From NCBI RefSeq assembly GCF_026410195.1, contig NZ_JAPMLM010000054.1:62001-126000 (forward strand): a stretch of DNA of 64,000 nt, in the 5' to 3' direction. Source of the stretch: Xanthomarina sp. F2636L (lineage in GTDB: Bacteria; Bacteroidota; Bacteroidia; Flavobacteriales; Flavobacteriaceae). A program made the translations under genes and the position numbers. A model generated the notes under the pieces. That model saw nothing but the letters and a program-made list of their open reading frames with translations, did no database searches and had not been told where the DNA came from. Shown here piece by piece: positions 5,976-63,203 of this stretch (positions are counted from its first letter, which is position 1; every line of letters starts with the position of its first letter).

Positions 5976-6102
5976 AAAAGGGTTTTTAAAAAGAAAGAAT
6001 ATATAATTTCACTCACGTCTCACGTCTCACGTCTCACGTCTCACGTCTCACGTCTCACGTCTCACGTCTCACGTCTCACAACTCACAACTCACAACTCAC
6101 AA
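5976..6102. repeat. heptamer array: CTCACGT x9 then CTCACAA x4, with core remnant
   Basis: From 6012 to 6074 there are nine perfect CTCACGT units, followed in the same phase by four CTCACAA units to 6102. The last units contain the stop codon (TCA on this strand, 6097-6099) and the final Leu codon of the MeaB gene. The AT-rich lead-in from 5976, with GGGTTTTTAAAAAG and TATAATTTCACTCAC, looks like a decayed version of the core seen at 15478 and 63007. Read in the MeaB direction each unit carries TGA. The block fills the gap between two convergent genes. Confidence 0.85.
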
Positions 6103-7215
6103 CCCCAACAAATAATCAGCTGCAGCAAAGGGCGTTGTTTTATTTTCTTCAATCAACTTAAGTTGCTCTTCTAAGGCGATTTTTATCTCTTTATTATTGA
6201 AAAAATGGGACTTTAGATGGTCTTCTATGGTTTGAATCAGCCAGAACTTATTTTGTTCTTGACGCTTTTTATCAAAATAAGTGTTTTTTGAAGTGATGCC
6301 CACATAGGTTTGTATCTGTTCCCAAATAGCTTCAATTCCTTCGTTATTCAAGGCACTGCACAGCATGACTTTTGGTTGCCATTCCGAAGTCTTTTTAGGA
6401 TATAAATGCAAGGCTCTGTTAAATTCTACCTTGGCTATTTTAGCCGATTTTAAATTATCACCATCGGCTTTATTAATAGCAATAAGATCTGCCATTTCAA
6501 TAATGCCTCGTTTTATACCTTGTAGCTCGTCGCCAGCTCCAGCCAATTTAAGTAATAGGAAAAAATCGACCATACTATGAACAGCAGTTTCACTTTGTCC
6601 CACGCCCACCGTTTCAATAATTATGGAATCAAACCCAGCAGCTTCACATAGAATAATAGATTCTCTGGTTTTTCTGGCAACTCCTCCAAGGGAATCTCCA
6701 GAAGCCGAAGGTCTGATAAAGGCATTTTTTTCTTTTACCAGGGCTTCCATTCGGGTTTTATCTCCAAGAATACTTCCCTTGGTTAAAGAACTACTTGGGT
6801 CCACAGCTAAGACAGCCACTTTCTTTCTTAAACTGGTTAAATGGGTTCCAAAAGCTTCTATAAAGGTGCTTTTCCCAACTCCAGGAACACCGGTTATTCC
6901 AATCCTTACCGATTTGTTGGCATGTGGTAAACAGCCTGTAATAATGGTATGGGCTTTGTCAAAATGTAAGGGGTTCTTACTTTCAATAATAGTAATAGCA
7001 CGACTTAAAGCGGTCATGTCGCCCTTTAAAATTCCAGCAATTAAGTCCTCGGCAGAAGGTTGTTTTTGTCGCCTAGACCTCATTTTTTCTATATAAGAGG
7101 TATTGATAGTTGGAGGTTGAATCACCCCATCTTTTTCTTCTAATGCCGATGTTTTTTCTTTAGCCACGACGTCCTGTTTATTCAAAGTTTTAGGTTCAAA
7201 ATCTGAGAGAACCAA
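6097..7215 (-). CDS. meaB: methylmalonyl-CoA mutase-associated GTPase MeaB
   Basis: The 372-residue G3E-type GTPase has the P-loop GVPGVGKST near residue 110, DPSSSLTKGSILGDKTRM, IIETVGVGQSE (Walker B region) and the guanine-specificity motif NKADG, with a family-typical C-terminus (FAAADYLLGL). MeaB protects and reloads the adenosylcobalamin enzyme methylmalonyl-CoA mutase in propionate metabolism. The TTG at 7215 is the longest start. The N-terminal EEKDGVIQPP-like region seems conserved in relatives, so the start is probably close; a GTG near 7167 preceded by AGGA is an alternative. A TATCTTTA promoter-like box lies just before the TTG. The PduO-type cobalamin adenosyltransferase at 12642 makes the cofactor this system uses. 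Confidence 0.85.
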   Translation of the reverse strand: MVLSDFEPKTLNKQDVVAKEKTSALEEKDGVIQPPTINTSYIEKMRSRRQKQPSAEDLIAGILKGDMTALSRAITIIESKNPLHFDKAHTIITGCLPHANKSVRIGITGVPGVGKSTFIEAFGTHLTSLRKKVAVLAVDPSSSLTKGSILGDKTRMEALVKEKNAFIRPSASGDSLGGVARKTRESIILCEAAGFDSIIIETVGVGQSETAVHSMVDFFLLLKLAGAGDELQGIKRGIIEMADLIAINKADGDNLKSAKIAKVEFNRALHLYPKKTSEWQPKVMLCSALNNEGIEAIWEQIQTYVGITSKNTYFDKKRQEQNKFWLIQTIEDHLKSHFFNNKEIKIALEEQLKLIEENKTTPFAAADYLLGL

Positions 7216-7280
7216 TAAAAGATAAAGATATCATTTATTGTTTTGATGAAAAAACAAATTGAAAGTCAAATTCCATATGG

Positions 7281-7360
7281 AACTTTAAATCTCAAACTTT
7301 GAATTTGAAACTTTGAATCTTAAATCGTCCACTACCCACTACCTACTACCCACTACCCAC
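7281..7360. repeat. heptamer array, AACTTTG/AATCTTA units passing into CACTACC units
   Basis: Eleven consecutive 7-base units keep one phase: AACTTTA, AATCTCA, AACTTTG, AATTTGA and relatives up to 7322, then AATCGTC, then CACTACC and TACTACC units to 7357. The array touches the stop codon (7361-7363) of the minus-strand DUF2911 gene. In that gene's direction the CACTACC units each carry TAG. Confidence 0.8.
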
Positions 7361-7915
7361 TTATTTCAAAGGCACCACCACCTTCGTGTCATCCCATGCC
7401 ATAGTTAAAGACAGGTTATCTGTAGAATTGTCAAAACCTATCGTAAACTGTTCTACAGTGGTATCTATTTTTTGAGCAGGAACCTCCACATCTATCACAT
7501 CAAACTCTGGCTCTCGTAAGGGTTTCATTTCCATATCGACACCCCAAGGATATTGTTTTTTGTTAAACATGACGTGCCAGGTTGAATCACTTGGAATGGT
7601 CCATAAGGTATATTTCCCGGCAGGAAGAGAATCAGTCCCAACCTTTAAAGCTTTATTGGTTTCAAAGGTAGTGGCTTCGTTGGCTCCCGTTCGCCAAACT
7701 TGATTGAATGGAACCAAGGCTCCAAAAACGTCACGATTGCGTTTGGAGGGTCTGTTATAGAATACTTTTAATTCAATATCGTCTACTTTAAAGCTGACAA
7801 TTTTTTTCGGACTTAAAGGTTTTTTCAATAAGCCATCGTTTAAAACAGAGTATGTGAAAACACCAATAGCAACAAGTACTAAAAGCCCAATGATCCATTT
7901 TAAAAATCTATTCAT
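7361..7915 (-). CDS. DUF2911 domain protein, membrane-anchored
   Basis: The chosen ATG at 7915 gives 184 residues. A TTG 12 codons upstream would add a non-hydrophobic stretch before MNRFLKWI and is unlikely. Residues 1-25 form one membrane helix (LKWIIGLLVLVAIGVFTYSVL). The rest is the DUF2911 domain, with RPSKRNRDVFGALVP, WRTGANEATTFE and GKYTLWTIPSDSTWHVMFN, a beta-rich domain common in Bacteroidota. It is probably anchored in the inner membrane with the domain in the periplasm. No function is established for the family. A TATCTTTA box lies upstream on the same strand, and the stop abuts a heptamer array. Confidence 0.85.
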   Translation of the reverse strand: MNRFLKWIIGLLVLVAIGVFTYSVLNDGLLKKPLSPKKIVSFKVDDIELKVFYNRPSKRNRDVFGALVPFNQVWRTGANEATTFETNKALKVGTDSLPAGKYTLWTIPSDSTWHVMFNKKQYPWGVDMEMKPLREPEFDVIDVEVPAQKIDTTVEQFTIGFDNSTDNLSLTMAWDDTKVVVPLK

Positions 7916-8052
7916 AACTACTTGTTTTTTTGAGGGATAAAGATACTTCAAAACTTATATTAAGTAAAATTGAAACGCTCATTTCTTTTGAAATATTTTA
8001 TCCCATTATAATTTATATGAATTTAGTTGAAGATGATCAATTTCATAATTTT

Positions 8053-8101
8053 TACCAACTACCAACTACCAACTACCAACTACCAACTACCAACTACCAA
8101 C
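8053..8101. repeat. heptamer array TACCAAC x7
   Basis: Seven perfect TACCAAC units follow each other without interruption. They lie upstream of the DUF2911 gene and next to a minus-strand terminator. Confidence 0.9.
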
Positions 8102-8107
8102 TACTCC

Positions 8108-8138: not shown

Positions 8139-8206
8139 CTCATTATATGTATTATAGTAAAACAGGTATGTGTCGTTCAAATATGGCTATAGGTTATTTA
8201 AGCACT

Positions 8207-8640
8207 AATCAAAAATCAAAAATCTCCAATCAAAAATCAACAATCCCCAATCTCCAATCAACAATCCCCAATCTCCAATCAACAATCCCCAATCAGCAAT
8301 CCTCAATCTCCAATCTCCAATCCCCAATCAACAATCAAAAATCCCCAATCCCCAATCAGCAATCAGCAATCAACAATCTCCAATCAACAATCAAAAATCC
8401 CCAATCAAAAATCAACAATCCCCAATCAACAATCCCCAATCAACAATCCCCAATCCCCAATCAGCAATCAGCAATCAACAATCTCCAATCAACAATCAAA
8501 AATCCCCAATCTCCAATCAACAATCCCCAATCAACAATCAAAAATCCCCAATCTCCAATCAAAAATCCCCAATCAAAAATCAACAATCAGCAATCTCCAA
8601 TCAACAATCATCAATCTCCAATCGTTAATCCTCAACCAAC
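8207..8640. repeat. heptamer array of 62 AATCNNN units
   Basis: From 8207 to 8640 there are 434 bases, exactly 62 units of seven, and AATC recurs at every seventh position wherever I checked (8207, 8284, 8403, 8522, 8620). The three variable bases are mostly AAC, CCC, AAA, TCC or AGC, and groups of units recur in the same order, suggesting block duplications. The last units hold the secA stop codon (8625-8627). The open frame that runs through this block on the plus strand is an artefact of the repeat. Confidence 0.95.
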
Positions 8641-11600
8641 ACCCAGTCTCCTTTAGCAATTAAAGGCTCGGCTTGTTTGTATTTTAAAGATTTGTTTTCT
8701 CCACTCATCACATGTTTGATAGTCACTTTATCGTTTCTTCCAATTTTCGGTCTGTCTCTAACAATAGTTTCCACAACATCTTGTTGTCTTTGTGTGTTTC
8801 CGGCAGCCCTACTTTGTGCTGAACGTTCATCCAGATTTGGAATCTCGTCTTTTTGTGTCTGCAGATTTTCCTTTTTTCTGGTTTGTTTGGCTTCTTGAAT
8901 AGCTGAATTTGCAGAATCTTCCGAAGGAAGTTCTCCTTTAAATAAGAAAGATATCACGTCTTTATTCACTAAGTCAATCATTTCCTTAAACAATTCAAAG
9001 GCTTCAAACTTGTAAATTAATAAAGGGTCTTTTTGTTCGTGTACGGCCAATTGCACAGATTGCTTCAACTCATCCATTTTACGTAAATGGGTTTTCCAGG
9101 CATCATCAATAATTGCAAGAGCAATGTTTTTTTCGAAATCTGTAATTAGTTGTTTTCCTTCAGTTTCATAAGCTTTTTCAAGATCTGTAACTACTTGTAA
9201 GGTTTTTACACCATCGGTAAATGGCACGACAATACGTTTAAATTTATCACGTTGGTTTTCGTATACATTTTTAATCACAGGAAAGGCCATTTCAGCATTT
9301 CTTGTCATTTTTTCTTTATAATAATTAAAAGAGGCTTTATATACTTTAGCTGTAATCTCTTGTACAGATAGCTTTCCAAAGTCGGCTTCAGTTATTGGCG
9401 AACTCATTGAGAAGAAACGAATCAATTCAAACTCAAAGTTCTTAAAGTCGTTTGCTGCTTTATTCGTTTCTGTAATCCCTTCAGCGGTATCGTAAAGCAT
9501 GTTGGCAAGATCCACACGCAAACGCTCTCCAAATAAGGCGTGGTGACGACGTTTGTAAACAACTTCACGCTGCGAGTTCATCACATCATCATATTCTAAT
9601 AGACGTTTTCTAACTCCAAATTGGTTTTCTTCTACTTTTTTCTGTGCGCGTTCAATAGATTTTGAAATCATGGAATGCTGAATCACTTCTCCTTCCTTTA
9701 ATCCCATCTTATCCATCATTTTGGCAATTCGTTCACTACCAAATAAACGCATCAGATTATCTTCTAAAGACACATAAAACTGCGAGCTTCCTGGATCTCC
9801 CTGACGTCCGGCACGACCACGTAACTGTCTGTCTACACGACGCGAATCGTGACGTTCGGTACCTATAATAGCTAAACCTCCGGCATTCTTAACGGTGTCA
9901 GATAATTTAATATCCGTACCACGTCCAGCCATATTGGTGGCAATGGTTACCTGTCCAGCATTCCCTGCTTCGGCAACAATTTCAGCTTCTTTTTTATGTT
10001 GTTTTGCGTTTAAGACATTATGAGATATTTTTCGAATACTCAACATCTTTCCTAAAAGCTCACTTATTTCTACCGATGTGGTACCAATCAAAACAGGTCG
10101 TCCTGCTTCTGAAAGTCTGGTCACTTCATCAATAACGGCATTGTATTTTTCACGTTTGGTTTTATATACCAAATCTTCTCTATCGTCTCTGGCAATAGGT
10201 CTGTTGGTTGGAATTTCAACCACATCCAATTTATAGATTTCCCAAAACTCTCCAGCTTCTGTAACAGCCGTTCCCGTCATCCCAGACAGTTTGTTGTACA
10301 TTCTAAAGTAATTTTGAAGGGTTACGGTGGCAAAGGTTTGGGTGGCCGCTTCAATTTTTACATTTTCTTTGGCTTCAATAGCTTGGTGTAAACCATCGCT
10401 ATAACGACGCCCATCCATAATACGCCCTGTTTGTTCATCAACAATCATCACCTTATTATCCATCACTACATACTGAATGTCTTTCTCGAATAAGGCATAA
10501 GCTTTCAGTAATTGGTTTAGGGTATGGATGCGTTCCGATTTGATTCCGAAATCTCTAAATAAATCTTCTTTTCTCTCAGCTTCTTCCTCTTTCGTCGCAC
10601 TTTCAGCTTCAATCTTAGCAATTTCGATACCTATTTCTGGCATCACAAAGAAATCTGGATTATCTGGACCAGAAAGATATTCAATACCTTTATCAGACAA
10701 TTCTATCTGATTGTTCTTTTCTTCAATCACATAGTACAACTCAGCATCCACCTTTGGCATCTCTCTGTTGTTGTCTGCCATGTATTGGTTCTCCGTTTTT
10801 TGAAGCAGTTGTTTGATTCCTTCTTCACTTAAAAACTTAATAAGTGCTTTGTTTTTAGGGATTCCTCTATAAACACGTAATAATTTAAAACCGCCTTCTT
10901 TGGTATCTCCTTCAGCAATTAATTTCTTAGCTTCAGCTAAAACACCTGTTAAGTATTTGCGTTGTACGGCTACAATATCATCCACTTTAGGTTTTAAAGC
11001 ATCAAACTCTTGAATATCTCCTTTCGGAATAGGTCCGGAAATAATTAAAGGGGTTCGTGCATCATCCACTAATACGGAATCGACCTCATCCACGATGGCG
11101 AAATGATGTGGACGTTGTACCAGATCGTCTGGAGAATGTGCCATATTATCACGTAGGTAGTCAAAACCAAATTCGTTATTTGTTCCGTAGGTAATATCTG
11201 CTAAATATGCCTTTTTTCTGGCAGCAGAGTTTGGCTGGTGGTAATCGATACAATCCACAGTTAAGCCATGAAATTGAAATATAGGAGCCATCCACGCGCT
11301 ATCACGTTTGGCCAGGTAGTCGTTTACTGTCACCAGGTGCACGCCTTTGCCTGCAAGGGCATTTAAGTACATAGGCAGGGTAGCCACTAAGGTTTTACCT
11401 TCTCCGGTTTGCATCTCGGCAATTTTACCTTGGTGCATAGCAATACCACCAATAAGTTGCACATCGTAATGCACCATATCCCAGGTGATGTCTTTTCCGG
11501 CAGCATCCCAGGAATTAGCCCAAATGGCCTTGTCATTATCTAAGGTGACATAGTCTTTGTCTCCAGAAAGCTCTCTGTCGTAGGTGCTGGCAGTAACGGT

Positions 11601-11987
11601 AATTTCAGGATTATTTACAAATCGTTTGGCTGTTTCTTTTACTACCGCAAAGGCTTCTGGTAAAATATCATTTAAAACATCTTCGGTAATGGTGTAGATG
11701 GTCTCTTTAATACCATCAATTTCCTGATAGATGTCCTCTCTTTTATCAATATCTTCTGTAGCTTCGGCATCAATCATGAGTTTCTCGATGCTGTCGTTAT
11801 ATGGTTTCCTGGCTTCATTAATTTTTTCTTTGAACTCAGCAGTTTTAGCACGAAGTTGGTCGTGAGACAATGCTTCTAAACTGGCCTCAAAGGTTTTAAT
11901 TTTTTCTACTAAAGGCTTAATAGCCTTCACATCTTGTTTCGACTTATCGCCGACAAATATTTTTAGTACAGAATCTAAAAGGGTCAT
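8625..11987 (-). CDS. secA: preprotein translocase ATPase SecA
   Basis: The 1120-residue motor drives Sec-dependent secretion through SecYEG. Visible are the Walker A region MQTGEGKTLVATLP, DEVDSVLVDDARTPLIISGP (DEAD box), GTAVTEAGEF and the helicase motif RQLRGRAGRQGDPGSSQF, followed by the helical scaffold and wing domains. It is longer than the roughly 900 residues of E. coli SecA because of insertions usual in Bacteroidota. The tail reads IGRND followed by KVTIKHVMSGENK, so the CxCxSGxxxxCH zinc motif that normally follows IGRND is absent. The gene stands alone behind a TACCTTTG promoter, and its stop lies in a 62-unit heptamer array. Confidence 0.97.
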   Translation of the reverse strand: MTLLDSVLKIFVGDKSKQDVKAIKPLVEKIKTFEASLEALSHDQLRAKTAEFKEKINEARKPYNDSIEKLMIDAEATEDIDKREDIYQEIDGIKETIYTITEDVLNDILPEAFAVVKETAKRFVNNPEITVTASTYDRELSGDKDYVTLDNDKAIWANSWDAAGKDITWDMVHYDVQLIGGIAMHQGKIAEMQTGEGKTLVATLPMYLNALAGKGVHLVTVNDYLAKRDSAWMAPIFQFHGLTVDCIDYHQPNSAARKKAYLADITYGTNNEFGFDYLRDNMAHSPDDLVQRPHHFAIVDEVDSVLVDDARTPLIISGPIPKGDIQEFDALKPKVDDIVAVQRKYLTGVLAEAKKLIAEGDTKEGGFKLLRVYRGIPKNKALIKFLSEEGIKQLLQKTENQYMADNNREMPKVDAELYYVIEEKNNQIELSDKGIEYLSGPDNPDFFVMPEIGIEIAKIEAESATKEEEAERKEDLFRDFGIKSERIHTLNQLLKAYALFEKDIQYVVMDNKVMIVDEQTGRIMDGRRYSDGLHQAIEAKENVKIEAATQTFATVTLQNYFRMYNKLSGMTGTAVTEAGEFWEIYKLDVVEIPTNRPIARDDREDLVYKTKREKYNAVIDEVTRLSEAGRPVLIGTTSVEISELLGKMLSIRKISHNVLNAKQHKKEAEIVAEAGNAGQVTIATNMAGRGTDIKLSDTVKNAGGLAIIGTERHDSRRVDRQLRGRAGRQGDPGSSQFYVSLEDNLMRLFGSERIAKMMDKMGLKEGEVIQHSMISKSIERAQKKVEENQFGVRKRLLEYDDVMNSQREVVYKRRHHALFGERLRVDLANMLYDTAEGITETNKAANDFKNFEFELIRFFSMSSPITEADFGKLSVQEITAKVYKASFNYYKEKMTRNAEMAFPVIKNVYENQRDKFKRIVVPFTDGVKTLQVVTDLEKAYETEGKQLITDFEKNIALAIIDDAWKTHLRKMDELKQSVQLAVHEQKDPLLIYKFEAFELFKEMIDLVNKDVISFLFKGELPSEDSANSAIQEAKQTRKKENLQTQKDEIPNLDERSAQSRAAGNTQRQQDVVETIVRDRPKIGRNDKVTIKHVMSGENKSLKYKQAEPLIAKGDWVLVED

Positions 11988-13215: not shown

Positions 13216-13250
13216 GGTTTCAATTCAAAGTTTGAAATTCAAAGTTAATG
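13216..13250. repeat. heptamer repeats upstream of the adenosyltransferase gene
   Basis: Five in-phase units (GGTTTCA, ATTCAAA, GTTTGAA, ATTCAAA, GTTAATG) lie directly before the ATG at 13214. The words match those of the array at 7281-7322 in reverse complement (AACTTTG, AATTTGA). Confidence 0.6.
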
Positions 13251-14529: not shown

Positions 14530-14595
14530 TATTAGAACTTCGGTTTTGTTAGCACTTTGATGTTAAGATATCACTTTGATGTTTCAATCTTCCAA

Positions 14596-14870
14596 TGTCA
14601 GTCTGAGCTTGTCGAAGACCCTTCCAAGTGAGACAACAAGTTTCCAATGTCAGTCTGAGCCTGTCGAAGACCTTTACTAAATTAATGTTTTTTTTGAAAG
14701 CACTTCGACAAGCTCAGTGTGACAACAATCTTCCAATGTCAGTCTGAGCCTGTCGAAGACCCTTCCAAGTGAGACAACAGGCTTCCAATGTCAGTCTGAG
14801 CCTGTCGAAGACCTTTACTAAATTAATGTTTTTTTTGAAAGCACTTCGACCCTTCCGAAGACCCTTCCAA
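14596..14870. repeat. type B REP-like repeats, left block
   Basis: Forward arms TGTCAGTCTGAGCCTGTCG start at 14596 (variant with TT), 14648, 14737 and 14789. An inverted arm, CACTTCGACAAGCTCAGTG, lies at 14701-14719, and a partial one at 14842. Arms pair head to head across an AT spacer (ACTAAATTAATG plus a T-run), like a REPIN. The block surrounds the GIY-YIG gene together with 15195-15394 and reaches into its C-terminal codons. Confidence 0.85.
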
Positions 14871-15176
14871 ATCTCCGTATTTACCAAACTGAGTATAATT
14901 TTTAGAGTATTCAATCAATTTGTCCCAATCTTCATTTATGAGAGCTATCTTTTTTCTTCTACTCCATCCTTTTAATTGTTTTTCTATAGTTATCGCTTCT
15001 TCTGGACTTGTAAACATTTCTAGCCATTTAAGAGTTACTGGTCTTCTGGAATAAGTATATGAATTTTTATCTAAACCACTATTGTGTTGATATAATCGCT
15101 TTTCAATGTTAGAACTTACACCAATATAAAATGATGCGTCAGAACATTCTAATATGTAAACGTAGTAGAATTTCAT
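14823..15176 (-). CDS. GIY-YIG nuclease family protein, copy 1
   Basis: Residues 3-80 form a GIY-YIG domain: YYVYILECSDASFYIGVSS (the two short motifs VYI and YIG), the catalytic Arg in IEKRLYQHN, and a glutamate in ITIEKQLKGWSRRKK. Such single-domain proteins (YhbQ/UvrC-like) are about 85-100 residues. Here the last 14 or so codons, after KNYTQFGKYGDLEG, are supplied by the surrounding REP-like repeat, so the natural end may have been overwritten. The gene is isolated and bordered on both sides by type B repeats. A role of the nuclease in moving or maintaining these repeats is inferred from position only. Confidence 0.8.
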   Translation of the reverse strand: MKFYYVYILECSDASFYIGVSSNIEKRLYQHNSGLDKNSYTYSRRPVTLKWLEMFTSPEEAITIEKQLKGWSRRKKIALINEDWDKLIEYSKNYTQFGKYGDLEGSSEGSKCFQKKH

Positions 15177-15477: not shown

Positions 15478-15598
15478 GGTTAACAGTTTTCGGTTTTTAA
15501 AAAAGAAACTTTTTATTATCAATAAATAATTTTTAAATGTCACTCACAACTCACAACTCACAACTCACAACTCACAACTCACAACTCACAACTCACAA
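15478..15598. repeat. heptamer element with core plus CTCACAA x8
   Basis: A core of about 65 bases (from GGTTAACAGTTTTCGG to TTTTTAAATGTCA) is nearly identical to the core at 63007-63070. It is followed by eight perfect CTCACAA units (15543-15598). The next bases of the same phase contain the stop codon (TCA, 15600-15602) of the minus-strand ABC-F gene. In that gene's direction each unit carries TGA. Confidence 0.9.
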
Positions 15599-15599
15599 C

Positions 15600-17462
15600 T
15601 CACTCCTCCAGCTTCGCACTCAACTCAAACCACCTCATTTCCTTCTCATCAATCTCGTCCATAATGCTTTGTAGTTTTTGCGAGAGGTCTTGAATCTGCT
15701 CCGGGCTTAGACTTTCGTCATGAAACTTGGCTTCCAAGGCTTTTTTATCGTAATCAAGAGCACTTAATTTGCTTTCAATATTTTTATATTCTTTCTGCTC
15801 ATTATAAGACAGCTTGGTATTGCTGTCCTTTTTCCATTCTTTTTTGTCTTTCTTCAATTCGCTGTTGCTAGGCTCTTGTGGCTGACTGTCTTCGTAGGTT
15901 CTAAAATCGGAATAATTTCCAGGGAAATCTTCAACAACCCCTTCGCCTCTAAACACAAATAGATGATCAATCACCTTATCCATAAAATACCGGTCGTGAG
16001 ACACAACAATCAAGCAGCCAGGAAAATCCAGTAAGAAACTCTCCAGGACGTTTAGGGTGACAATATCTAAATCGTTGGTAGGTTCATCCAGAATTAAAAA
16101 GTTTGGGTTCTGAATTAAAACCGTACATAAATACAGACGCTTGCGTTCGCCACCACTTAGTTTTTCAACAAAATCATATTGCTTTTTACGGTCAAATAAA
16201 AAGCGCTCTAACAGTTGCTGTGCACTAATTTGTCGGCCTTTTTTTAAAGGAATATAATCGCCAAATTCTTTAATCACATCAATGACCTTTTGCTCTGGTT
16301 TTACTTGAATCCCGGCTTGAGTATAATACCCAAATTTCACGGTTTCTCCGGCCACTATTTTTCCGGAGTCGGGTTGCTGGGTTTGGGTAAGCAGGTTGAG
16401 AAAGGTCGATTTCCCAGTGCCGTTTTTTCCAATAATCCCCAGGCGTTCACCTCTTTGAAAGGTATAATCAAAACCGTCTAAGATGATTTTATCTTTATAT
16501 GCTTTAGATACTTTATGGAGTTCCAGAATCTTGCTACCCAAACGTTCCATGTTCAATTCCAGTTCCATGGTATGGTCGTTTCGGCGTTGTTGGGCTTTGT
16601 GTTTGATGTCGTGAAAATCGTCTATTCGCGACTTAGATTTGGTGGTTCTCGCTTTGGGTTGTTTACGCATCCAATCCAGTTCTTTTTTAAAGAGTTGCTT
16701 GGTTTTGCCTAGTTCTACCGCTTCATTTTCTATGCGCGCTTCCTTTTTTTCTAAGTAATACGAATAATTCCCTTTATAGGTATACAGTTGTCCTTGATCG
16801 AGTTCGATAATTTCATTGCACACACGTTCTAGAAAATACCGGTCGTGCGTTACCATAAACAAGGTCATTTGCTCCTTGGCAAAAAAGTCTTCCAGCCATT
16901 CAATCATTTCCAAATCCAAGTGGTTGGTAGGTTCATCTAATATCAGAAGGTCTGGTTTTTGAAGCAGGGCAATGGCTAAAGCCAGTCTTTTTTTCTGTCC
17001 TCCAGACAGGGTGCTCACTTTTTGGTTGAGGTCTTCCAGCTTCAATTGAAACAAAATCTGTTTGTATTGGGTTTCAAAATCCCAGGCCTGATGACTGTCC
17101 ATTTGCTCAAAGGCTTTCTGGTAAGCTTCAGCATCTTCAGGTGTTTCTAAGGCCTTTTCATAGGCTTTAATCACATCTAAAATGGGATTCTTGGTATCGA
17201 AGATGGCGGCTTCCACCGTTAAGGTATTATTGAGATCCGGTTCCTGAGATAAAAAGGCGACTTGGATGTCTTTTCTGTAAATGATGTTCCCGGAATCTGG
17301 ACTGTCTTTCCCAGCAAGCATGTTTAAAATGGAGGTTTTTCCCGTCCCGTTTTTAGCCACAAAGGCTATTTTCTGATTCTTATGGATGCTAAAAGAAAGA
17401 TCCTGGAAGAGGCTTAGCTCTCCGTAGGATTTCGAAATATTTTCAACTGTAAGATAATTCAA
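15600..17462 (-). CDS. ABC-F family ATPase (Uup-like)
   Basis: The 620-residue soluble protein has two ABC domains in tandem: Walker A AKNGTGKTS near residue 40 and GKNGTGKSTFLN near 345, with signatures LSGGQKKRLAL and LSGGERKRLYL, Walker B motifs followed by DEPTNHLDL and DEPTNDLDI, and an inter-domain linker rich in basic residues. A charged coiled-coil tail from about residue 530 resembles the Uup C-terminal domain. ABC-F proteins act on the ribosome or, for Uup, in DNA repair. No membrane segments are present. The start is a TTG, and no in-frame ATG lies just upstream. The next gene diverges across a promoter region. Confidence 0.9.
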   Translation of the reverse strand: MNYLTVENISKSYGELSLFQDLSFSIHKNQKIAFVAKNGTGKTSILNMLAGKDSPDSGNIIYRKDIQVAFLSQEPDLNNTLTVEAAIFDTKNPILDVIKAYEKALETPEDAEAYQKAFEQMDSHQAWDFETQYKQILFQLKLEDLNQKVSTLSGGQKKRLALAIALLQKPDLLILDEPTNHLDLEMIEWLEDFFAKEQMTLFMVTHDRYFLERVCNEIIELDQGQLYTYKGNYSYYLEKKEARIENEAVELGKTKQLFKKELDWMRKQPKARTTKSKSRIDDFHDIKHKAQQRRNDHTMELELNMERLGSKILELHKVSKAYKDKIILDGFDYTFQRGERLGIIGKNGTGKSTFLNLLTQTQQPDSGKIVAGETVKFGYYTQAGIQVKPEQKVIDVIKEFGDYIPLKKGRQISAQQLLERFLFDRKKQYDFVEKLSGGERKRLYLCTVLIQNPNFLILDEPTNDLDIVTLNVLESFLLDFPGCLIVVSHDRYFMDKVIDHLFVFRGEGVVEDFPGNYSDFRTYEDSQPQEPSNSELKKDKKEWKKDSNTKLSYNEQKEYKNIESKLSALDYDKKALEAKFHDESLSPEQIQDLSQKLQSIMDEIDEKEMRWFELSAKLEE

Positions 17463-20999: not shown

Positions 21000-22289
21000 A
21001 TGAATACAGATAAAATTGCCATCATTGGTTTAGGCTACGTAGGTTTGCCCTTAGCGGTGGAGTTTGCCAAAAAATATCCCGTGTTGGGTTTTGATATCAA
21101 TACCAGACGGGTGACAGAATTACAAGGAGGAACAGATAGAACCTTAGAAGTGGAAGATGCTCAGTTAAAAGCCGTATTACGTCCCGATTTTACCGATAAA
21201 ACCGGCCTTCATGTCACCAATCAACTAGAGGTTCTGGAAGACGCAAATATATACATCATCACCGTTCCTACGCCTACCGATGCCCTAAACAAACCTGTTT
21301 TTACACCTTTAATTAAAGCCAGTGAAACGGTGGGCAAGGTCTTAAAAAAAGGAGATATTGTTATTTATGAATCTACGGTTTATCCCGGAGCCACCGAAGA
21401 TATTTGTATCCCAATTTTAGAACAGGTTTCAGGACTTCACTTTAACAGCGATTTTTATGCCGGCTATTCCCCAGAGCGAATCAATCCAGGGGATAAAAAA
21501 CACACCGTAACTAAAATATTAAAGGTGACCTCTGGTTCCACACCCGAAGTGGCTAAAGTAGTAGATGATTTGTATAAATCCATCATCACTGCTGGGACGC
21601 ATATGGCACCTTCTATTAAAGTGGCCGAAGCGGCCAAAGTGATTGAAAATTCCCAACGGGATATCAACATTGCTTTTGTCAATGAGCTGTCTAAAATCTT
21701 TAGACTGTTGGATATCGATACCAAAGCTGTTTTAGAAGCAGCTGGTACCAAATGGAATTTCATCAATTTTACGCCAGGATTGGTAGGAGGACATTGTATT
21801 GGGGTCGATCCGTATTACCTGGCACAGAAAGCCATTGAATCTGGGTATAACCCGGAGATTATTTTGGCTGGAAGAAAGATGAACGATAGTATGGGATCCT
21901 ACGTCGCTACCGAAACGGTGAAAATGATGATTAAAAAAGGAGCCACCATCAAAGGTGCGAAAGTGCTCGTGCTGGGCATCACCTTTAAGGAAAACTGTCC
22001 GGATATTAGAAACTCTCGGGTGATTGATATTATAAGAGAGTTTGAAAGCTATGAGATACAAGTAGATGTCTTTGATCCCTGGGCCTCCTCGGAAGAAGTG
22101 AAGGAAGAATATGGTTTCGATTTGTTATGCGATAAGAAAGACGTCAATCATAATTATGATGCCATTATTTTAGCTGTCAGTCATAATGAATTTGTTAAAA
22201 TCGATATTGAAAGATTAAAATCTCCTATAGGTGTTATTTTTGATGTAAAGTCTTTATTGCCTAAGGGGATGGTTGATGGGAGGTTGTAA
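21000..22289 (+). CDS. UDP-N-acetylhexosamine dehydrogenase (TviB/WbpO type)
   Basis: The 429-residue protein has the NAD-binding motif IAIIGLGYVGLPLAVEFAKK at the N-terminus, VPTPTDALNKPVFTPL and the catalytic cysteine in LVGGHCIGVDPYYL near residue 265. The NDSMGSYVA motif follows. These features fit the TviB/WbpO branch, which oxidises UDP-GalNAc (or UDP-GlcNAc) at C6 to the uronic acid. The UDP-N-acetylhexosamine 4-epimerase that usually accompanies it is the gene after next. The cytosolic product would be a donor for the glycosyltransferases of this locus. The stop is followed at once by a heptamer array. Confidence 0.88.
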   Translation: MNTDKIAIIGLGYVGLPLAVEFAKKYPVLGFDINTRRVTELQGGTDRTLEVEDAQLKAVLRPDFTDKTGLHVTNQLEVLEDANIYIITVPTPTDALNKPVFTPLIKASETVGKVLKKGDIVIYESTVYPGATEDICIPILEQVSGLHFNSDFYAGYSPERINPGDKKHTVTKILKVTSGSTPEVAKVVDDLYKSIITAGTHMAPSIKVAEAAKVIENSQRDINIAFVNELSKIFRLLDIDTKAVLEAAGTKWNFINFTPGLVGGHCIGVDPYYLAQKAIESGYNPEIILAGRKMNDSMGSYVATETVKMMIKKGATIKGAKVLVLGITFKENCPDIRNSRVIDIIREFESYEIQVDVFDPWASSEEVKEEYGFDLLCDKKDVNHNYDAIILAVSHNEFVKIDIERLKSPIGVIFDVKSLLPKGMVDGRL

Positions 22290-22293
22290 ATGC

Positions 22294-22716: not shown

Positions 22717-22762
22717 GATACTAACAGGGAATTGTAAGTTATTTAACGAATATGCATTTGAA

Positions 22763-22797: not shown

Positions 22798-22812
22798 AAA
22801 CAAAAAATAAAG

Positions 22813-24396: not shown

Positions 24397-24429
24397 CAAA
24401 TTAAGATAGTGAAAAAGAATGAGAGTTAG

Positions 24430-28775: not shown

Positions 28776-28820
28776 CATGATAAGTGGAGATTAATTAATG
28801 AGATATAGTGAGAGATGAAA

Positions 28821-53361: not shown

Positions 53362-54705
53362 ATGCCATTTAGTTTTTTAACATATCTACAACCCACCCAT
53401 TATTTTCGCTTAGTTATAAACACAGGAAAGACGGTCTTTCCTATTGCAAAAGAATTACCAGATAGGATTTTAGAGCAACTCATGGTAGATACAGACTACA
53501 AGTCGAAGGAGGCTCAGGATTATGATCTGTCTTGGCAGGCTGTGCAACAAGGCTATATAGGGGCTGCTGAAACCTATAGTAGCTTTAAAAAGCTTCCCAT
53601 TAAAGACGAATACCATTTTATTAGAAAACAATTTCATCCGGCCTGGGTGTTTTATGTGTTATTCATGCGTTTGGTGACCTTTCATAACCCGATACAAGAA
53701 ATTCAAGGCTGGTTGTCAACCACGCATATCAAAAAGCAAGCGAATGATTTAACGCCCATAGCTTACCCGAAATGGGACGCCTATCCTTCTGAACTAATTG
53801 CACAAAAACCTCTGGTAACTGTGGTGATTCCCACCTTAAATCGCTATACCTATTTAAGGAATGTCCTAAAAGATTTTGAAAAACAGGAGTATCCCCATTT
53901 TGAAATCCTTGTGGTTGATCAATCGGAACCCTTTCAACCTGAGTTTTATAAAGAATTTAATTTAAACCTTCGTGTGATTCGTCAGGAAGAAAAAGCCTTA
54001 TGGCTGGCACGAAATACAGCTATTAAAGAAGCCAAAGGGACTTTAATAGCCTTATCAGAAGACGATGTACGTATTCAACCCGATTGGTTATCTACCCATC
54101 TAAAATGTTTAGATTTTTTTGATGCGCAGGTGTCTGCAGGCGTCTTTTACCCCGAAGGACAAAGCATCCCAAAAGACCGGTCATTTTTTGCTTTGGGGTC
54201 TCAATTTGCTACAGGAAACGCCATGCTTTATAAAGATGTTTTTAAGCAGGTAGGCTTGTTCGATAGACAGTTTGAAAAACAACGTATGGGCGATGGGGAA
54301 TTTGGATTGCGCGTGTATTTAGAAGGAATGAAATCGGTGTCTAATCCGTTTGCCTCCTGTATAGATGTCAAGGCAGGCACAGGAGGCTTGCGAGAGATGG
54401 GGTCCTGGGATGCTTTTAGACCTTCTACATTTTTTGCACCTAGACCCATTCCAAGTGTTCTGTATTATTTTAGAACCTATTATGGCAAGGCAGCAGCCCG
54501 ATGGGCCTTATGGCGCACCATTCCCATCTCTATCTTGCCTTATCAGTTTAAAAAAAATAAACCCATGTTGCTGCTTGGTGTATTCCTGAGTATCTTGCTG
54601 ACGCCAGTAATCCTGTTTCAGGTGTTTAAGAGTTGGAGATTGGCTGGTAAAAAATTAAAGCAAGGCCCATTAATTGAAAAGTTAGAAGTGAGAGGTGAGA
54701 AGTGA
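53362..54705 (+). CDS. GT2 glycosyltransferase with N-terminal extension and membrane anchor
   Basis: The 447-residue protein has about 150 residues before the GT-A domain, which shows VTVVIPTLNRYTYLRNVLKD near residue 152, ILVVDQSEPFQP and LIALSEDDVRIQPDW (EDD motif). DGEFGLRVYLEG follows as the catalytic region. A C-terminal membrane helix (MLLLGVFLSILLTPVILFQV) anchors it. The role of the extension is unknown. The last codons and the TGA stop are part of a heptamer array that runs on to the start of the next gene, so the C-terminal ELEVRGEK-like residues are repeat-encoded. Confidence 0.85.
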   Translation: MPFSFLTYLQPTHYFRLVINTGKTVFPIAKELPDRILEQLMVDTDYKSKEAQDYDLSWQAVQQGYIGAAETYSSFKKLPIKDEYHFIRKQFHPAWVFYVLFMRLVTFHNPIQEIQGWLSTTHIKKQANDLTPIAYPKWDAYPSELIAQKPLVTVVIPTLNRYTYLRNVLKDFEKQEYPHFEILVVDQSEPFQPEFYKEFNLNLRVIRQEEKALWLARNTAIKEAKGTLIALSEDDVRIQPDWLSTHLKCLDFFDAQVSAGVFYPEGQSIPKDRSFFALGSQFATGNAMLYKDVFKQVGLFDRQFEKQRMGDGEFGLRVYLEGMKSVSNPFASCIDVKAGTGGLREMGSWDAFRPSTFFAPRPIPSVLYYFRTYYGKAAARWALWRTIPISILPYQFKKNKPMLLLGVFLSILLTPVILFQVFKSWRLAGKKLKQGPLIEKLEVRGEK

Positions 54706-54736
54706 AAAGTGAATAGTGAAAAGTGAGAAGTGAAAA
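54681..54736 (+). repeat. heptamer array bridging two glycosyltransferase genes
   Basis: Eight units in strict phase (GTTAGAA, GTGAGAG, GTGAGAA, GTGAAAA, GTGAATA and repeats of these) cover the last codons and stop of the GT2 gene and the GTG start of the GT4 gene. The stop TGA lies in one unit (54702-54708) and the start GTG is the first codon of the last unit (54730-54736). Confidence 0.9.
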
Positions 54737-55827
54737 ATAAACGTATTTTAATAGTGACTTCTGAATTTCCGCCACAACCTGGGGGCATAGGAAACCATGC
54801 CTATTATTTAAGCTTGTATTTGGCTAAGAATGGCTTTGAGGTCTCAGTGATTGCCGATCAGCGCGATGTAGATAATGAGGAAGAAAAACGCTTTGATAAG
54901 GCTTTGCCTTTTAAAGTCACACGTATTGCTTTAAAACGTTTTAGACCCTTTATGTATCTAAATCGCATCATTAAAACCTTGAAAGCCTTTAAACAAGCCG
55001 ATTTTGTGATTGCTACGGGGAAGTTTTCTCTTTGGAATGTGGCCTTTTGTTCCTTGTTTTTTAAGCCCAAGACTTTGGCAGTGATTCACGGTTCAGAAGT
55101 GAATTTTAAATCGGCTGGCTTAAAAAAAGCTGTTGAACTTTCTTTAAAACGTTTTGATACGCTTGTGGCCGTATCGGAATATACCGCTCAGTTAGTGGCT
55201 CATTTAGATCGGGATATCCATGTCATCCCCAATGGGATTGAGCTAAAAGCATGGGATCAAACCCATATAAAATCCAGCTCTTTAGAAGGCAGTCCGGTCT
55301 TAACCACAGTGGGTCGGGTTAGCAGCCGTAAAGGGCAGTTACAAGTGATTAAACTTCTGCCTGAATTATTAAAAAGCTTTCCCAAGGCACACTACCATTG
55401 TATTGGGATTCCTACCGAAGCTCCTGCTTTTATTGAAGAAGCTAAAGCATTAGGCATTGATAATCGGGTGACTTTTCATGGAGCCCTTCCCGATGCAGAT
55501 TTAAAAGCGATGTTATTAGCAACCGATATCTTTGTCATGTTAAGTACCGAAAGTATGTCTGGAGATGTAGAGGGCTTTGGGATTGCTATTTTAGAAGCCA
55601 ATGCTCTGGGTGTTCCAGCCATAGGCAGTACAGGTTGTGGGATAGAGGATGCGATTAACCATGGGGTTTCTGGTTTTTTAATGGAGTCGCATAACGGACA
55701 GCTGTTTACGGAACATATTAGGCATATTTTAACGGATAAAGAAACCTTTAAATTACAAGCCAGAACCTGGGCCCAACAGCACGATTGGAACCACATTATT
55801 AAACAATATATTTGTCATATCTCATGA
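54730..55827 (+). CDS. GT4 glycosyltransferase
   Basis: The 365-residue GT-B protein has the N-terminal motif ILIVTSEFPPQPGGIGNHAY. The donor domain shows LTTVGRVSSRKGQLQVIKLL near residue 195, FHGALPDADLKAMLLATDIF and GDVEGFGIAILEANALGVPA (E-x7-E) near residue 275. This is a typical PimB/WcaI-like arrangement. The GTG start is supplied by the last unit of the heptamer array before it, so there is no ordinary ribosome-binding spacer. It overlaps the next gene by 4 bases. Confidence 0.88.
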   Translation: MKNKRILIVTSEFPPQPGGIGNHAYYLSLYLAKNGFEVSVIADQRDVDNEEEKRFDKALPFKVTRIALKRFRPFMYLNRIIKTLKAFKQADFVIATGKFSLWNVAFCSLFFKPKTLAVIHGSEVNFKSAGLKKAVELSLKRFDTLVAVSEYTAQLVAHLDRDIHVIPNGIELKAWDQTHIKSSSLEGSPVLTTVGRVSSRKGQLQVIKLLPELLKSFPKAHYHCIGIPTEAPAFIEEAKALGIDNRVTFHGALPDADLKAMLLATDIFVMLSTESMSGDVEGFGIAILEANALGVPAIGSTGCGIEDAINHGVSGFLMESHNGQLFTEHIRHILTDKETFKLQARTWAQQHDWNHIIKQYICHIS

Positions 55828-60582: not shown

Positions 60583-60720
60583 AACTCCCCTTTCTTTACC
60601 TTCGTTTCTCTTCGGTAAATTTTGCCAACGCGCCAGCTCGCACCTTCGCTAAAATAGTCCACAGGACTATTTTTATACGCTCGGTCGTAACTAAAGAAGG
60701 GAGCTTGGTGTAGTTATTAT
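60583..60720. repeat. type C repeat, left arm beside the DUF559 gene (copy C3)
   Basis: CAAACTCCCCTTTCTTTACC opens the arm, followed by the AATAGTCCACAGGACTATT hairpin and GAAGGGAGCTTGG. It is the left half of a third type C unit whose right half lies at 61150-61335 and which carries the nuclease gene between the arms. Confidence 0.85.
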
Positions 60721-60751: not shown

Positions 60752-61117
60752 TCAAGAATTAAAATTATCCCGTATTTCTTTTAAAACAGAAGATAGGAAA
60801 TCAAAAACCATGTTATTTTCAAACCGGATGACTTTATAGCCCTGATTTTCTAGATAGCTACTTCGTTTTCTATCATATTCTTGAGCTTCAGGCTTGTTAT
60901 GTACCTCTCCATCCAATTCAATAATTAATTTTTCAGAAGCACAATAGAAGTCTACTATAAAATGTCCAATGCTATGTTGTTTAGTAAATCGTCTGTTGTC
61001 TAGTTGCCTAGATTTTAATTGTGTCCATAAATAGGCTTCTGCAGGAGTTAAATTTTTGCGAAGTTGTTTTCTACGTTCCTGAAATTCTTTTTTGTTATGT
61101 AAGTTTTGTTTGGACAT
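60752..61117 (-). CDS. DUF559 / Vsr-like endonuclease domain protein
   Basis: The 121-residue protein has the DUF559 pattern: LRKNLTPAEAYLWTQLKSRQ near residue 20, FTKQHSIGHFIVDFYCASEK and LIIELDGEVHN near residue 65, giving the PD-(D/E)XK catalytic residues (Asp in IVDFYC, Glu and Asp in IELDG), then GYKVIRFENNMVFDF. The start is ATG 61117. Such small nucleases are frequent in Bacteroidota with no known role. It stands alone between the two arms of a type C dispersed repeat, and the same repeat occurs twice in this window without a gene. A part in repeat mobility or repair is conceivable. Confidence 0.85.
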   Translation of the reverse strand: MSKQNLHNKKEFQERRKQLRKNLTPAEAYLWTQLKSRQLDNRRFTKQHSIGHFIVDFYCASEKLIIELDGEVHNKPEAQEYDRKRSSYLENQGYKVIRFENNMVFDFLSSVLKEIRDNFNS

Positions 61118-61149: not shown

Positions 61150-61335
61150 AAAAAACAATAACAATCTAAAGCTACTCCCTTCAGTTGAAGGGCGACCAAG
61201 CGTAAAGAAATAGTCCTGTGGACTATTTTAGCGCAGGGGCGAGCTGGCGCGTGGGCATTTAAGCGAAACGCAGAGAAGATGAGACGGAGCCTGCCCGAAT
61301 GCCGAACAGAATGTGGAGGCAGGCAGGGGTTTGTC
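61150..61335. repeat. type C repeat, right arm beside the DUF559 gene (copy C3)
   Basis: AGCTACTCCCTTCAGTTGAA, the AATAGTCCTGTGGACTATT hairpin, GAGACGGAGCCTGCCCGAAT and GGAGGCAGGCAGGGGTTTG form a longer and more diverged right arm. The GGCAGGCAGGGGTTTG end is shared with the tail before copy C1 near 13410-13425. Confidence 0.8.
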
Positions 61336-61477: not shown

Positions 61478-61540
61478 AACTGATAACTGAGAACTGATAA
61501 CTGAGAACCGACAACGGATAACCCACCCCTCACAACCAAT
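61478..61540 (+). repeat. heptamer array AACTGAT/AACTGAG x9
   Basis: Nine in-phase units (AACTGAT, AACTGAG, AACCGAC, AACGGAT, AACCCAC and others) end 15 bases before the TTG of the next promoter. The first four units contain TGA on the plus strand. Here the array lies upstream of a promoter and not at a gene end. Confidence 0.8.
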
Positions 61541-61554: not shown

Positions 61555-61584
61555 TTGCATAAATTACTTAACTTATTATCTTTA
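61555..61584 (+). promoter_or_regulatory. promoter of the initiating transferase gene (TTG-19-TATCTTTA)
   Basis: TTG at 61555-61557 is followed after 19 bases by TATCTTTA at 61577-61584, one base from the TAnnTTTG pattern. The ATG lies 17 bases downstream. Confidence 0.6.
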
Positions 61585-61601
61585 TCACATAATTAAAAGA
61601 A

Positions 61602-62993
61602 ATGCCCAAATACGATATTCATTTTAATATTTCTGAGCGTAAGATTTTATTAAGACTGGTAGATATCTTAGCTATTCTGGGCATGCTATACCTGGTAAGT
61701 TCCACCTTTGCATTCGATTATTTTAGCGTGACTCATGAAAACTGGACCTGGGTATTGGTGCTTATTATTTATGTGACTGTTTTTGGAACCGTATTTGAAC
61801 TCTACGATTTGCAAAAAGCCTCCCTGCAATATAAGGTGCTCAGTAATATTGTGTTAACAGCCTCTATAACGGTGCTGTTCTATTTATTAACCCCGTTTTT
61901 TACTCCTTTGCTTCCTAATAACAGGATGCAGATTGTCTATTTTTATTTGGCTATTATTACGGCTCTTGTAATCTGGAGATTGATTTATATTCAGTTTATT
62001 GCGTCTCCTAGGTTTTATAAAAAAGCGCTTATTATTGGGGAAACATCCAATATCGAAACCATTGTAGATGCTTTTAAACAGGCAGATCCTAACTATAAGA
62101 TTATCGGGTTTATTAACTGCGAAACCCCTCTTCATGAAACGGTAAAATACCAGGGGATTCCAGAATATGATTGTAAGGATTTACACCATCTCATTGCTAA
62201 AGAAAATGTATCCGAAATAATTGTGGCAAGTTATAATGCTGAAACCATTACTGCAGAGATTTATAACAATTTAATCCAGCTTTTAGAACGCGGATTCCCT
62301 ATTAAGGAGTACACCCAAGCTTTTGAAGACATGACCTATCGGGTACCTGTCCAGTTTGTAGGAAAAGATTTTTATAAGTACTTCCCTTTTAGCCGAAGCA
62401 ATCACAACAAACTCTATCTGTTTTTTCATCGCTTATTCGATCTTCTGTTTTCTTTTGTCGGACTTATAATAGGATGTGTTTTTGTCCCGTTTGTACTCTT
62501 AGGCAATCTCATAGCCAATAAGGGCCCCTTGTTTTATTATCAGGATCGGGTGGGAAAGAATGGCAAGCTGTTCTCTATTGTAAAATTTCGAACCATGGTG
62601 GTCGATGCCGAACAAAATGGTGCTGTATGGGCACAAAAGAATGATGTGCGTGTTACACCGTTTGGAAGGTTTTTAAGAGGCTCTAGAATCGATGAGTTTC
62701 CTCAGTTTCTAAACATTTTAAAAGGGGATATGAGTTTGATAGGTCCCAGACCCGAACGTCCACATTTTGTAAACGAACTCTCGCAGGTAATACCCTTCTA
62801 TGAAACCAGACATATTATCAGACCAGGCTTAACAGGATGGGCTCAGGTAAAAGTGCGTTACGGCTCGACAGTTGAAGATAGTCTGCTAAAACTACAATAT
62901 GATTTGTATTATATCAAACACCGAAGTTTCTTTTTAGATGCCAATGTGATTGTAAAGACCTTAAGTACCATGTTGTTTTTTAGGGGGCAGTAG
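61602..62993 (+). CDS. WcaJ-like polyprenyl-phosphate sugar-1-phosphate transferase
   Basis: The 463-residue protein has four N-terminal helices (residues about 15-120), a CoA-binding-like Rossmann domain (KALIIGETSNIETIVDAFK) and a further helix near residue 280. The C-terminal catalytic domain follows, with GPLFYYQDRVGKNGKLFSIV, KFRTMVVDAEQNG, SRIDEFPQFLNILKGDMSLI and GPRPERPHFVNELS. This is the full layout of the initiating enzymes that put the first sugar phosphate on undecaprenyl phosphate. It starts the glycan that the locus builds. It has its own promoter, separate from the main operon. Its TAG stop is the edge of a heptamer element. Confidence 0.93.
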   Translation: MPKYDIHFNISERKILLRLVDILAILGMLYLVSSTFAFDYFSVTHENWTWVLVLIIYVTVFGTVFELYDLQKASLQYKVLSNIVLTASITVLFYLLTPFFTPLLPNNRMQIVYFYLAIITALVIWRLIYIQFIASPRFYKKALIIGETSNIETIVDAFKQADPNYKIIGFINCETPLHETVKYQGIPEYDCKDLHHLIAKENVSEIIVASYNAETITAEIYNNLIQLLERGFPIKEYTQAFEDMTYRVPVQFVGKDFYKYFPFSRSNHNKLYLFFHRLFDLLFSFVGLIIGCVFVPFVLLGNLIANKGPLFYYQDRVGKNGKLFSIVKFRTMVVDAEQNGAVWAQKNDVRVTPFGRFLRGSRIDEFPQFLNILKGDMSLIGPRPERPHFVNELSQVIPFYETRHIIRPGLTGWAQVKVRYGSTVEDSLLKLQYDLYYIKHRSFFLDANVIVKTLSTMLFFRGQ

Positions 62994-63203
62994 GTTGTCG
63001 GTTGTCGGTTAACGGTTTTCGGTTTTTAAAAAAGAAACTTTTTATTATCAAATATAATTTTTAAATTTCACTCACAACTCACAACTCACAACTCACAACT
63101 CACAACTCACAACTCACAACTCACAACTCACAACTCACAACTCACAACTCACAACTCACAACTCACAACTCACAACTCACAACTCACAACTCACAACTCA
63201 CAA
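62993..63203. repeat. heptamer element: GGTTNNN x5, core, CTCACAA x19
   Basis: Five units GGTTGTC, GGTTGTC, GGTTAAC, GGTTTTC, GGTTTTT begin in the last base of the WcaJ-like stop codon (62993-63027). They are followed by the AT-rich core shared with 15478-15542, including the weak AAAAAG/CTTTTT hairpin, and by exactly 19 perfect CTCACAA units (63071-63203). The next unit holds the stop codon (63205-63207) of the minus-strand gene. The whole gap between two convergent genes is thus repeat. Confidence 0.95.

Follow-up and report, generated by a model that had tools for sequence, protein, structure and literature searches.

IVP cassettes in the window

The window analysed here is a stretch of 64,000 nucleotides (nt) of the genome of Xanthomarina sp. 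F2636L (contig NZ_JAPMLM010000054.1, positions 62,001 to 126,000; G000:C50:62001-126000 in our numbering of its 75 contigs, 3.37 Mb in all), in whose intergenic spacers lie tandem arrays with a period of seven bases. Two pairs of such arrays flank the two complete genes of the window that belong to the PF05635 family (23S intervening-sequence protein, IVP), an arrangement of inverted pairs around a gene that was absent from the first-pass annotation of this DNA. We refer to an IVP gene with both flanking arrays as a cassette, to these arrays as its arms, and to arrays without an adjoining IVP gene as solo arrays. The two cassettes are made up as follows:

22293-22355, plus strand: left arm of cassette 1, GTGARNN heptads, beginning 3 nt past the stop of the upstream gene 21000-22289
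22366-22716, plus strand: IVP gene 1, 116 amino acids, PF05635 (E = 9.7e-37), TIGR02436
22768-22797, plus strand: right arm of cassette 1, ACGTTTC / NNYTCAC heptads
28361-28426, plus strand: left arm of cassette 2, degenerate AGTGGTG/ATTAGTG heptads, overlapping the end of gene 27524-28369
28428-28775, plus strand: IVP gene 2, 115 amino acids, PF05635 (E = 3.9e-35)
28821-28862, plus strand: right arm of cassette 2, degenerate, CGATTCA ... GTTTCAC

Both proteins score far above the cut-offs of Pfam PF05635 (125.9 and 120.7 bits, cut-off 33.8) and NCBIfam TIGR02436 (118.3 and 114.9, cut-off 24). Around the first, the flanks form an inverted repeat of 42 nt (22307-22348 / 22757-22798; 83% complementary), and each arm is the best partner of the other among the 73 flavobacterial-order loci described below. 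Pairing is weaker in cassette 2, where the own left flank ranks second of 73 for the right flank; its right arm would form an N-terminal extension of the open reading frame (ORF) 28815-30101 if the first ATG of that frame is used. Both cassettes lie between protein ORFs and not in a 23S rRNA helix, and a scan of the window with Rfam at gathering scores returned no match.

The periodicity is specific to the spacers. In 35 spacer pieces of the window (7,989 bases), sequence identity is 0.343 at lag 7, compared with 0.295 at lags 6 and 8, and it peaks again at lags 14, 21 and 28; there is no lag-7 peak in the genes of the window. A period-specific detector finds 10 period-7 arrays (starting at 6012, 7329, 8053, 8199, 15542, 22293, 54672, 61478, 62990 and 63070), at most one array for every other period from 4 to 15, and none of period 7 in 40 order-1 Markov resamples. 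The arrays listed in the first-pass annotation are thus largely real, and most of the listed places were confirmed with Tandem Repeats Finder and print-outs of their units. One of them, 13216-13250, was dropped, as its identity at lag 7 (0.46) is below that at lag 6 (0.52), and another, 62993-63203, is in fact two arrays, 62990-63026 and 63070-63208, with non-array sequence between them. The degenerate stretches 22763-22797, 28367-28429 and 28821-28862 fall outside the 10 arrays of the strict threshold and are credible solely because they are IVP arms. The proposal that some process conserves a length of seven and not a sequence is borne out, the array at 6012, for instance, running through nine CTCACGT units and then four CTCACAA units. 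A general unit of four constant and three variable bases, which AATCNNN and GTGANNN had suggested, was rejected (phase-contiguity p = 0.19, 71 imperfect arrays).

Inverted arms at IVP loci of other genomes

The genome of the window has 12 PF05635 places, 8 of them with a readable ORF, and at least one such place was found in 28 of the 40 genomes searched, this one included. Two sets of loci were assembled. For the flavobacterial order, 81 of 148 places, mostly the best-scoring, were read, giving 74 ORFs from 26 genomes, 73 of them with full flanks. The other set, mostly cyanobacterial, comprises 70 loci of 117 places and 66 ORFs, of which 63 from 17 genomes remained after full-flank and duplicate filters; its genomes were chosen through 20 TAACTGA-bearing records from 80 loci, and of the 19 searched, 18 have IVPs.

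Within 160 bp of the 73 flavobacterial-order genes, identity at lag 7 reaches 0.368 on the left and 0.355 on the right, again with peaks at 14 and 21, against at most 0.307 (left) and 0.313 (right) at lags 3-6 and 8-13; for 65 IVPs of the other set the lag-7 values are 0.409 and 0.385. Accepted arrays are present in 26/73 left and 24/73 right flavobacterial flanks, and in 0/264 control gene flanks on each side, all taken from the genome of the window, which also have no lag-7 peak. Periods 5, 6, 8 and 9 yield at most three arrays each in the IVP flanks.

A good arm pair was found in 39/73 flavobacterial and 44/63 other loci, with arms such as 15 AGGCAAC units facing 18 GTTGCCT units (L300), TAGTCCA facing ACTATGG (L339), or inverted TAACTGA arrays on both sides (L326). 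Across the flavobacterial set, the two flanks of a locus pair at -42.5 kcal/mol, compared with -30.6 kcal/mol for foreign flanks (permutation z = -16.3), and the own partner ranks first in 18/73 loci. For the 63 other loci, scored by Watson-Crick matches alone, the inverted score is 28.2 for own against 11.7 for foreign flanks (z = 23.3; own first in 27/63), while the match in direct orientation (14.6 against 10.5) is far weaker than the inverted one, yet above chance. Arm sequences differ among loci, and the match between own flanks is therefore locus-specific; at the level of sequence, the arms are shown to be locus-specific inverted complements. In 19 loci taken together, the order of variant units may be mirrored as well (pooled z = 3.66). 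L345, L339 and L300 carry this signal, which we take only as hinting at block copying, and z is zero or negative in 7 of the 19.

A further 30 loci (28 of them new) came from a search with an alignment of five TAACTGA-type IVPs, which used the protein sequence only and disregarded arrays. An array is present in 27 of the 29 readable ones, on both sides in 19/29; the threshold applied (13, in 300 bp) is looser than that of the flavobacterial control (nearest setting tested: 12, with another mismatch cost, in 160 bp), so both counts stand without a matching control. The three top-scoring loci have TAACTGA in the right arm and the remainder have other units. IVPs with GTAATTC/AATTACG-type arms were also observed in five cyanobacterial genomes (L405, L406, L408, L409 and L410), with left and right swapped in L405. 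Over 194 cyanobacterial genomes, TAACTGA-type IVPs and TAACTGA arrays occur together more than expected (Fisher p = 0.0037, and 0.019 without G049, a genome that supplied one query row of the IVP search), as they do at a looser cut of 125 bits (p = 0.020, and 0.070 without G049).

Arm sequence goes with IVP lineage

Of 136 IVPs, 83 have good arms. When the 23 of their 3,403 pairs that share a host site are set aside, arm similarity is 0.18 at less than 30% IVP identity and climbs to 0.24, 0.33 and 0.51 at 50-60%, 60-70% and above 70% identity (90, 43 and 39 pairs), against a flat 0.12-0.18 in a reversed control. By our reading of the list, subfamilies would differ in their arms, one being TAACTGA-like, another TTAGTCA, another AGAGAAA, and so on. 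Arms are alike when the IVPs are alike, even at unrelated host sites, and therefore travel and evolve with the gene.

Two junctions illustrate this mobility. The one upstream of the methionine synthase gene (metH) is occupied by an IVP in 4/29 genomes, and three congeners of two of the occupied genomes have plain junctions of 26 to 31 nt. Where the junction is occupied, an ATG immediately past the IVP stop would place the right arm in the downstream frame in at least two genomes; in L097 (1680-1740) and L025, translation of this arm would lengthen the N terminus of the methionine synthase part. Between sdhA and sdhB, genes that were named at three of the five loci, five congeners carry IVPs with three kinds of arms. 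A single clade of these five was rejected (approximately unbiased test, p = 0.0003; quick tree, few columns), and that of G004 groups with IVPs of other sites, being 82% identical to L115, which lies beside a thiolase gene. As judged from these sequences, different IVP lineages are shown to have entered this junction independently, more than once. In flavobacteria, cassettes are also shown to lie almost always between two neighbours that share one reading direction. Since arms track the IVP lineage and not the site, entries were independent and empty sites exist, we regard the IVP locus as a mobile cassette with travelling ends.

Arrays in the genome and in congeners

In 20 stretches of contigs C65 and C66 (400 kb, 28.4 kb of spacers), there is no lag-7 peak (0.319, against 0.321 and 0.318), and the period-specific detector finds no period-7 array. 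At a slightly looser threshold, there are none in 100 further kb of C50 and none in 80 kb of C51 and C54, and five in 220 kb of C70, two of which (near 185.5 and 198.7 kb) directly adjoin IVP genes. As far as sampled, heptad arrays are regional, not genome-wide: that they fill many spacers is correct for the window and not for the sampled rest of the genome, and the lag-7 excess that the first-pass annotation proposed to look for exists in the spacers of the window, not in its genes and not in the 400 kb elsewhere.

The spacer downstream of the ABC-F gene holds ACTCACA units in the window, CAACTCA in G003, AATCNNN in G004 and AACTCAC/AACAGAT at two contig ends in G005, and no array in G001, G002, G006 and G007; arrays are thus present in three of seven congeners. 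Because sister species have arrays in the same spacers, these are not a pure assembly artefact. The assembly of G005 is itself apparently broken by the long AACTCAC/AACAGAT array (end of L162 on C16, start of L163 on C12), and such long arrays are probably under-represented in draft genomes; a run of N also lies in the left flank of L028, a place in which the assembly of a repeat array would be difficult. Over eight congeners, the number of arrays in the region at 6-16 kb correlates with the number of IVPs (Spearman 0.80, p = 0.017; regions unequal in length, kinship uncorrected).

Solo arrays

The nine solo arrays of the window, seven of which overlap or abut a stop codon, are:

6012-6103, minus strand: abuts the stop codon of meaB (6097-7215, minus strand)
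7329-7361, minus strand: CCACTAC, abuts the stop of 7361-7951; weaker heptad stretch at 7281-7328
8053-8104, no strand: TACCAAC x7.4, no stop codon adjoining
8199-8645, minus strand: AATCNNN, about 62 units, overlaps the stop of 8625-11987
15542-15608, minus strand: ACTCACA, about 9 units, at the stop of the ABC-F gene 15600-17462
54672-54741, plus strand: GTGARAA, spans the stop of ORF 53362-54705 and the start of ORF 54730-55827
61478-61522, no strand: AACTGAT/AACTGAG, a rotation of TAACTGA
62990-63026, plus strand: GGTTNNN, at the stop of 61602-62993
63070-63208, minus strand: ACTCACA, about 20 units, at the stop of 63205-63792

Eight of them were scored against the flanks of the 74 flavobacterial-order IVPs, the array at 63070 being omitted, since its unit repeats that of 15542. 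For each, the best IVP of the same genome is outscored by just 0 to 4 foreign loci, a mean rank of 1.75 that compares with 7.7 for random sets of eight IVPs (p = 0.0002) and with 21.6 for random gene flanks of the same genome (0/5000 match the observed value); with 17 foreign loci added, the mean rank is 2.1 (p = 0.0003). This supports, though it does not settle, a kinship between the solo arrays of the window and the cassette arms of the same genome, whether through relics or through the spread of arms in trans. Arms-only remnants at two operon junctions of the same genome (L183) were considered as collapsed arms, and with hairpin z values of only -1.55 and -0.69 they are not claimed as such.

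Other features were noted in passing. A 169-residue ORF (8147-8656, plus strand) lies mostly inside the AATCNNN array, and its coiled-coil Pfam matches are probably spurious. A partial IVP match on the plus strand at 619-798 (E = 8.5e-8, profile positions 7-65) has no array detected beside it. An ORF for a DUF559 (endonuclease-like) protein (60752-61117, minus strand) sits between the copies of a 65-nt inverted repeat (60623-60687 / 61193-61257; 91%), and is another small gene with a repeat pair on its flanks. Two GIY-YIG ORFs on the minus strand adjoin tandem repeats of other periods, one (14823-15176) a 141-bp tandem at 14585-14850 and the other (24091-24474) a 22-bp tandem at 23797-23858.

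A probable mobile IVP cassette and its alternatives

We consider it reasonably probable, at about 60%, that each array is either an end of a mobile IVP gene cassette or a stray relative of such an end. In this cassette, a left heptad array and the IVP gene are followed by a right array that is a mirror (inverted) copy of the left one. The only relative of IVP found in the PDB by sequence is 2gsc (Xcc0516, 5 chains), five four-helix bundles according to the title of reference 25 in PMC10053308. An IVP assembled as such a ring might hold or recognise the heptad arms, and host replication on the fold-back of the two arms could lengthen, shorten or recopy them seven bases at a time; because of such recopying in seven-base steps, the length of the unit would persist as its sequence drifts. 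We infer the action of IVP on the arms, the cassette origin of the solo arrays and the reason for the number seven.

Several observations weigh against this reading. Many flavobacterial loci lack its hallmarks, with no accepted array in 47/73 left and 49/73 right flanks and no good arm pair in 34/73, and in cassette 2 the own right flank is merely the 17th best for the left flank. The link between solo arrays and arms, good in the genome of the window, is unproven as a rule, as the same test gave no significance in the sister genomes alone (p = 0.62 in G003, 0.17 in G004 and 0.10 in G005, the last with 7/8 IVPs in its final form; with partial IVP sets, p = 0.26 for G003 with 6/12, 0.13 for G004 with 7/14 and 0.97 for G005 with 3/8). 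In G005, two of the three arrays that L480 matches best probably belong to a single array whose ends lie on different contigs. In random stretches of IVP-rich and IVP-free genomes, we count 3 arrays in 400 kb and 0 in 389 kb, respectively, numbers too small to carry weight. For the TAACTGA repeats, 15/19 cyanobacterial genomes with arrays are without a strong TAACTGA-type IVP, 4/8 genomes with such an IVP have no TAACTGA arrays, and an IVP was found in just 1/80 TAACTGA loci (up to 8 kb each). Finally, we know of no enzyme activity of IVP, found no enzyme that would move the cassette, and obtain a median net charge of just +2.5 for 132 IVPs.

Plain replication slippage, by which tandems in spacers would expand with a polymerase preference for seven and IVP would be irrelevant to the solo arrays, seems to us unlikely. 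It draws on the report of Mrazek et al. (2007), as related in MacGregor (2015; PMC4679880), that, among long simple repeats, heptanucleotides form the commonest class in most genomes, for which an origin in polymerase slippage was proposed. The excess of solo arrays over cassettes in the window (9 to 2), the different units of sister species within the same spacer and the failure of the solo-to-arm link in the three sister genomes alone agree with it; yet slippage alone makes neither inverted, locus-matched arms around one gene family nor arms that track its lineages, and the lag-7 signal is missing from 400 kb of the same genome. In a landing pad model, IVP genes would insert into spacers that already hold heptad arrays, as the close trailing of upstream genes by cassettes, the seven solo arrays at stop codons and a plain metH junction of one congener that already has AAACACC, the right-arm unit, might suggest. 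Insertion inside an array would give arms in direct orientation, however, and the direct match, though above chance, is the far weaker one; with arms that track the IVP lineage, we consider this model very improbable.

The inverted orientation of the arms is equally expected of an intervening sequence that acts at the RNA level, with complementarity kept for a transcript stem that RNase III cuts, sparing operons polar effects. The gene family is that of the rRNA intervening sequences (IVSs), RNase III cuts the Coxiella IVS, which has a terminal stem of 28 bp, in vitro (PMC4990558), and 68/73 flavobacterial IVP genes lie in sense orientation between two co-directional neighbours, compared with 327/537 genes in sampled stretches (p = 7e-10, the latter counted by a somewhat different rule). 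Outside the flavobacterial order, however, just 34/63 cassettes are co-directional with both neighbours. RNA pairing should moreover favour G.U over A.C mismatches, and their numbers are 42 to 72 in 33/73 loci (p = 0.006 in the opposite direction) and 122 to 152 in 66 loci (p = 0.08); with no G.U excess, there is no sign of selection on an RNA stem, and we judge this explanation, too, to be improbable.

The mobile cassette could be part of something broader. PF05635 is widespread and called functionally uncharacterised in the literature, and for intergenic heptamer repeats there is no consensus on an explanation; a link between IVP lineages and 7-base arms of their own provides a testable role for the protein and may help explain heptamer repeats already known in bacterial genomes. 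In a bolder version, which we put forward tentatively and regard as doubtful, IVP would be the missing trans factor behind many of these repeats, with a lineage-specific unit, a five-fold ring that gathers arrays at one unit per protomer, and cassettes and loose arrays that spread and are recopied across phyla. If true, it would explain the short tandemly repeated heptanucleotide (STRR) sequences and the TAACTGA repeats of cyanobacteria, Beggiatoaceae and Bacteroidota.

Relation to known systems

The closest counterparts of the cassettes are the 23S rRNA IVSs with an S23/IVP ORF, as in Leptospira and Coxiella, which share the PF05635 family, an ORF between inverted terminal repeats that form a stem, and a sporadic distribution taken as horizontal transfer. 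An IVP ORF between inverted terminal repeats is also what the cassettes present, with weak pairing in cassette 2 of the window; they differ in lying between protein genes and in having arms that are arrays of 7-bp units varying by lineage. IVPs further occur in rRNA insertions of Candidate Phyla Radiation (CPR) bacteria (PMC11270868). That the IVS ORF serves mobility is an idea credited to Ralph and McClelland (1993) in PMC4990558, and our results support it and offer many natural insertions and empty sites for study.

The Avd protein of diversity-generating retroelements (DGRs) belongs to a related four-helix-bundle family (PMC10053308). Both window IVPs match the Avd model weakly, at 24.2 and 23.1 bits and far under its cut-off of 80, and no reverse transcriptase lies beside the cassettes, the sole RVT_1 match of the genome being on contig C54.

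In REPIN/RAYT systems, a gene has its own repeat on either side, in inverted copies, kin of that repeat are loose in the genome, and repeat and gene co-vary. The logic of the cassette would be similar, its protein having no known catalytic motif: the gene is flanked by its own repeat and co-varies with it, and for the dispersal of repeat kin the link is significant only in the genome of the window. In contrast to RAYTs, IVP is not a Y1/HUH transposase (PF01797 has no match in the genome of the window, nor do the two window IVPs match Y1), and its repeats are tandem arrays, not single palindromes.

Cyanobacterial STRRs are tandem heptamer arrays. With them, with the long simple repeats of Mrazek et al. 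(2007) and with the TAACTGA repeats, the arrays described here share an exact period of seven, a tandem arrangement and a mostly intergenic location. TAACTGA arrays were described in Beggiatoaceae, cyanobacteria and five Bacteroidetes, their mechanism of transfer not being evident (MacGregor, 2015; PMC4679880). The first-pass annotation had known of no equivalent description for flavobacteria, a view corrected by Gramella forsetii and A. sublithincola (genus Aequorivita). Heptamer arrays of both are reported in MacGregor (2015; PMC4679880), in whose text neither "four helix" nor "IVP" occurs. Heptamer arrays in bacteria, including flavobacteria, are already in print, and a search of openly licensed PMC papers found none that links them to IVP genes. 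Some members of one IVP subfamily have as their arms the TAACTGA repeats already described in cyanobacteria. Comparing the arrays with cyanobacterial repeats, as was done at the outset, was apt, as an IVP gene between mirrored arms is found in cyanobacteria as well.

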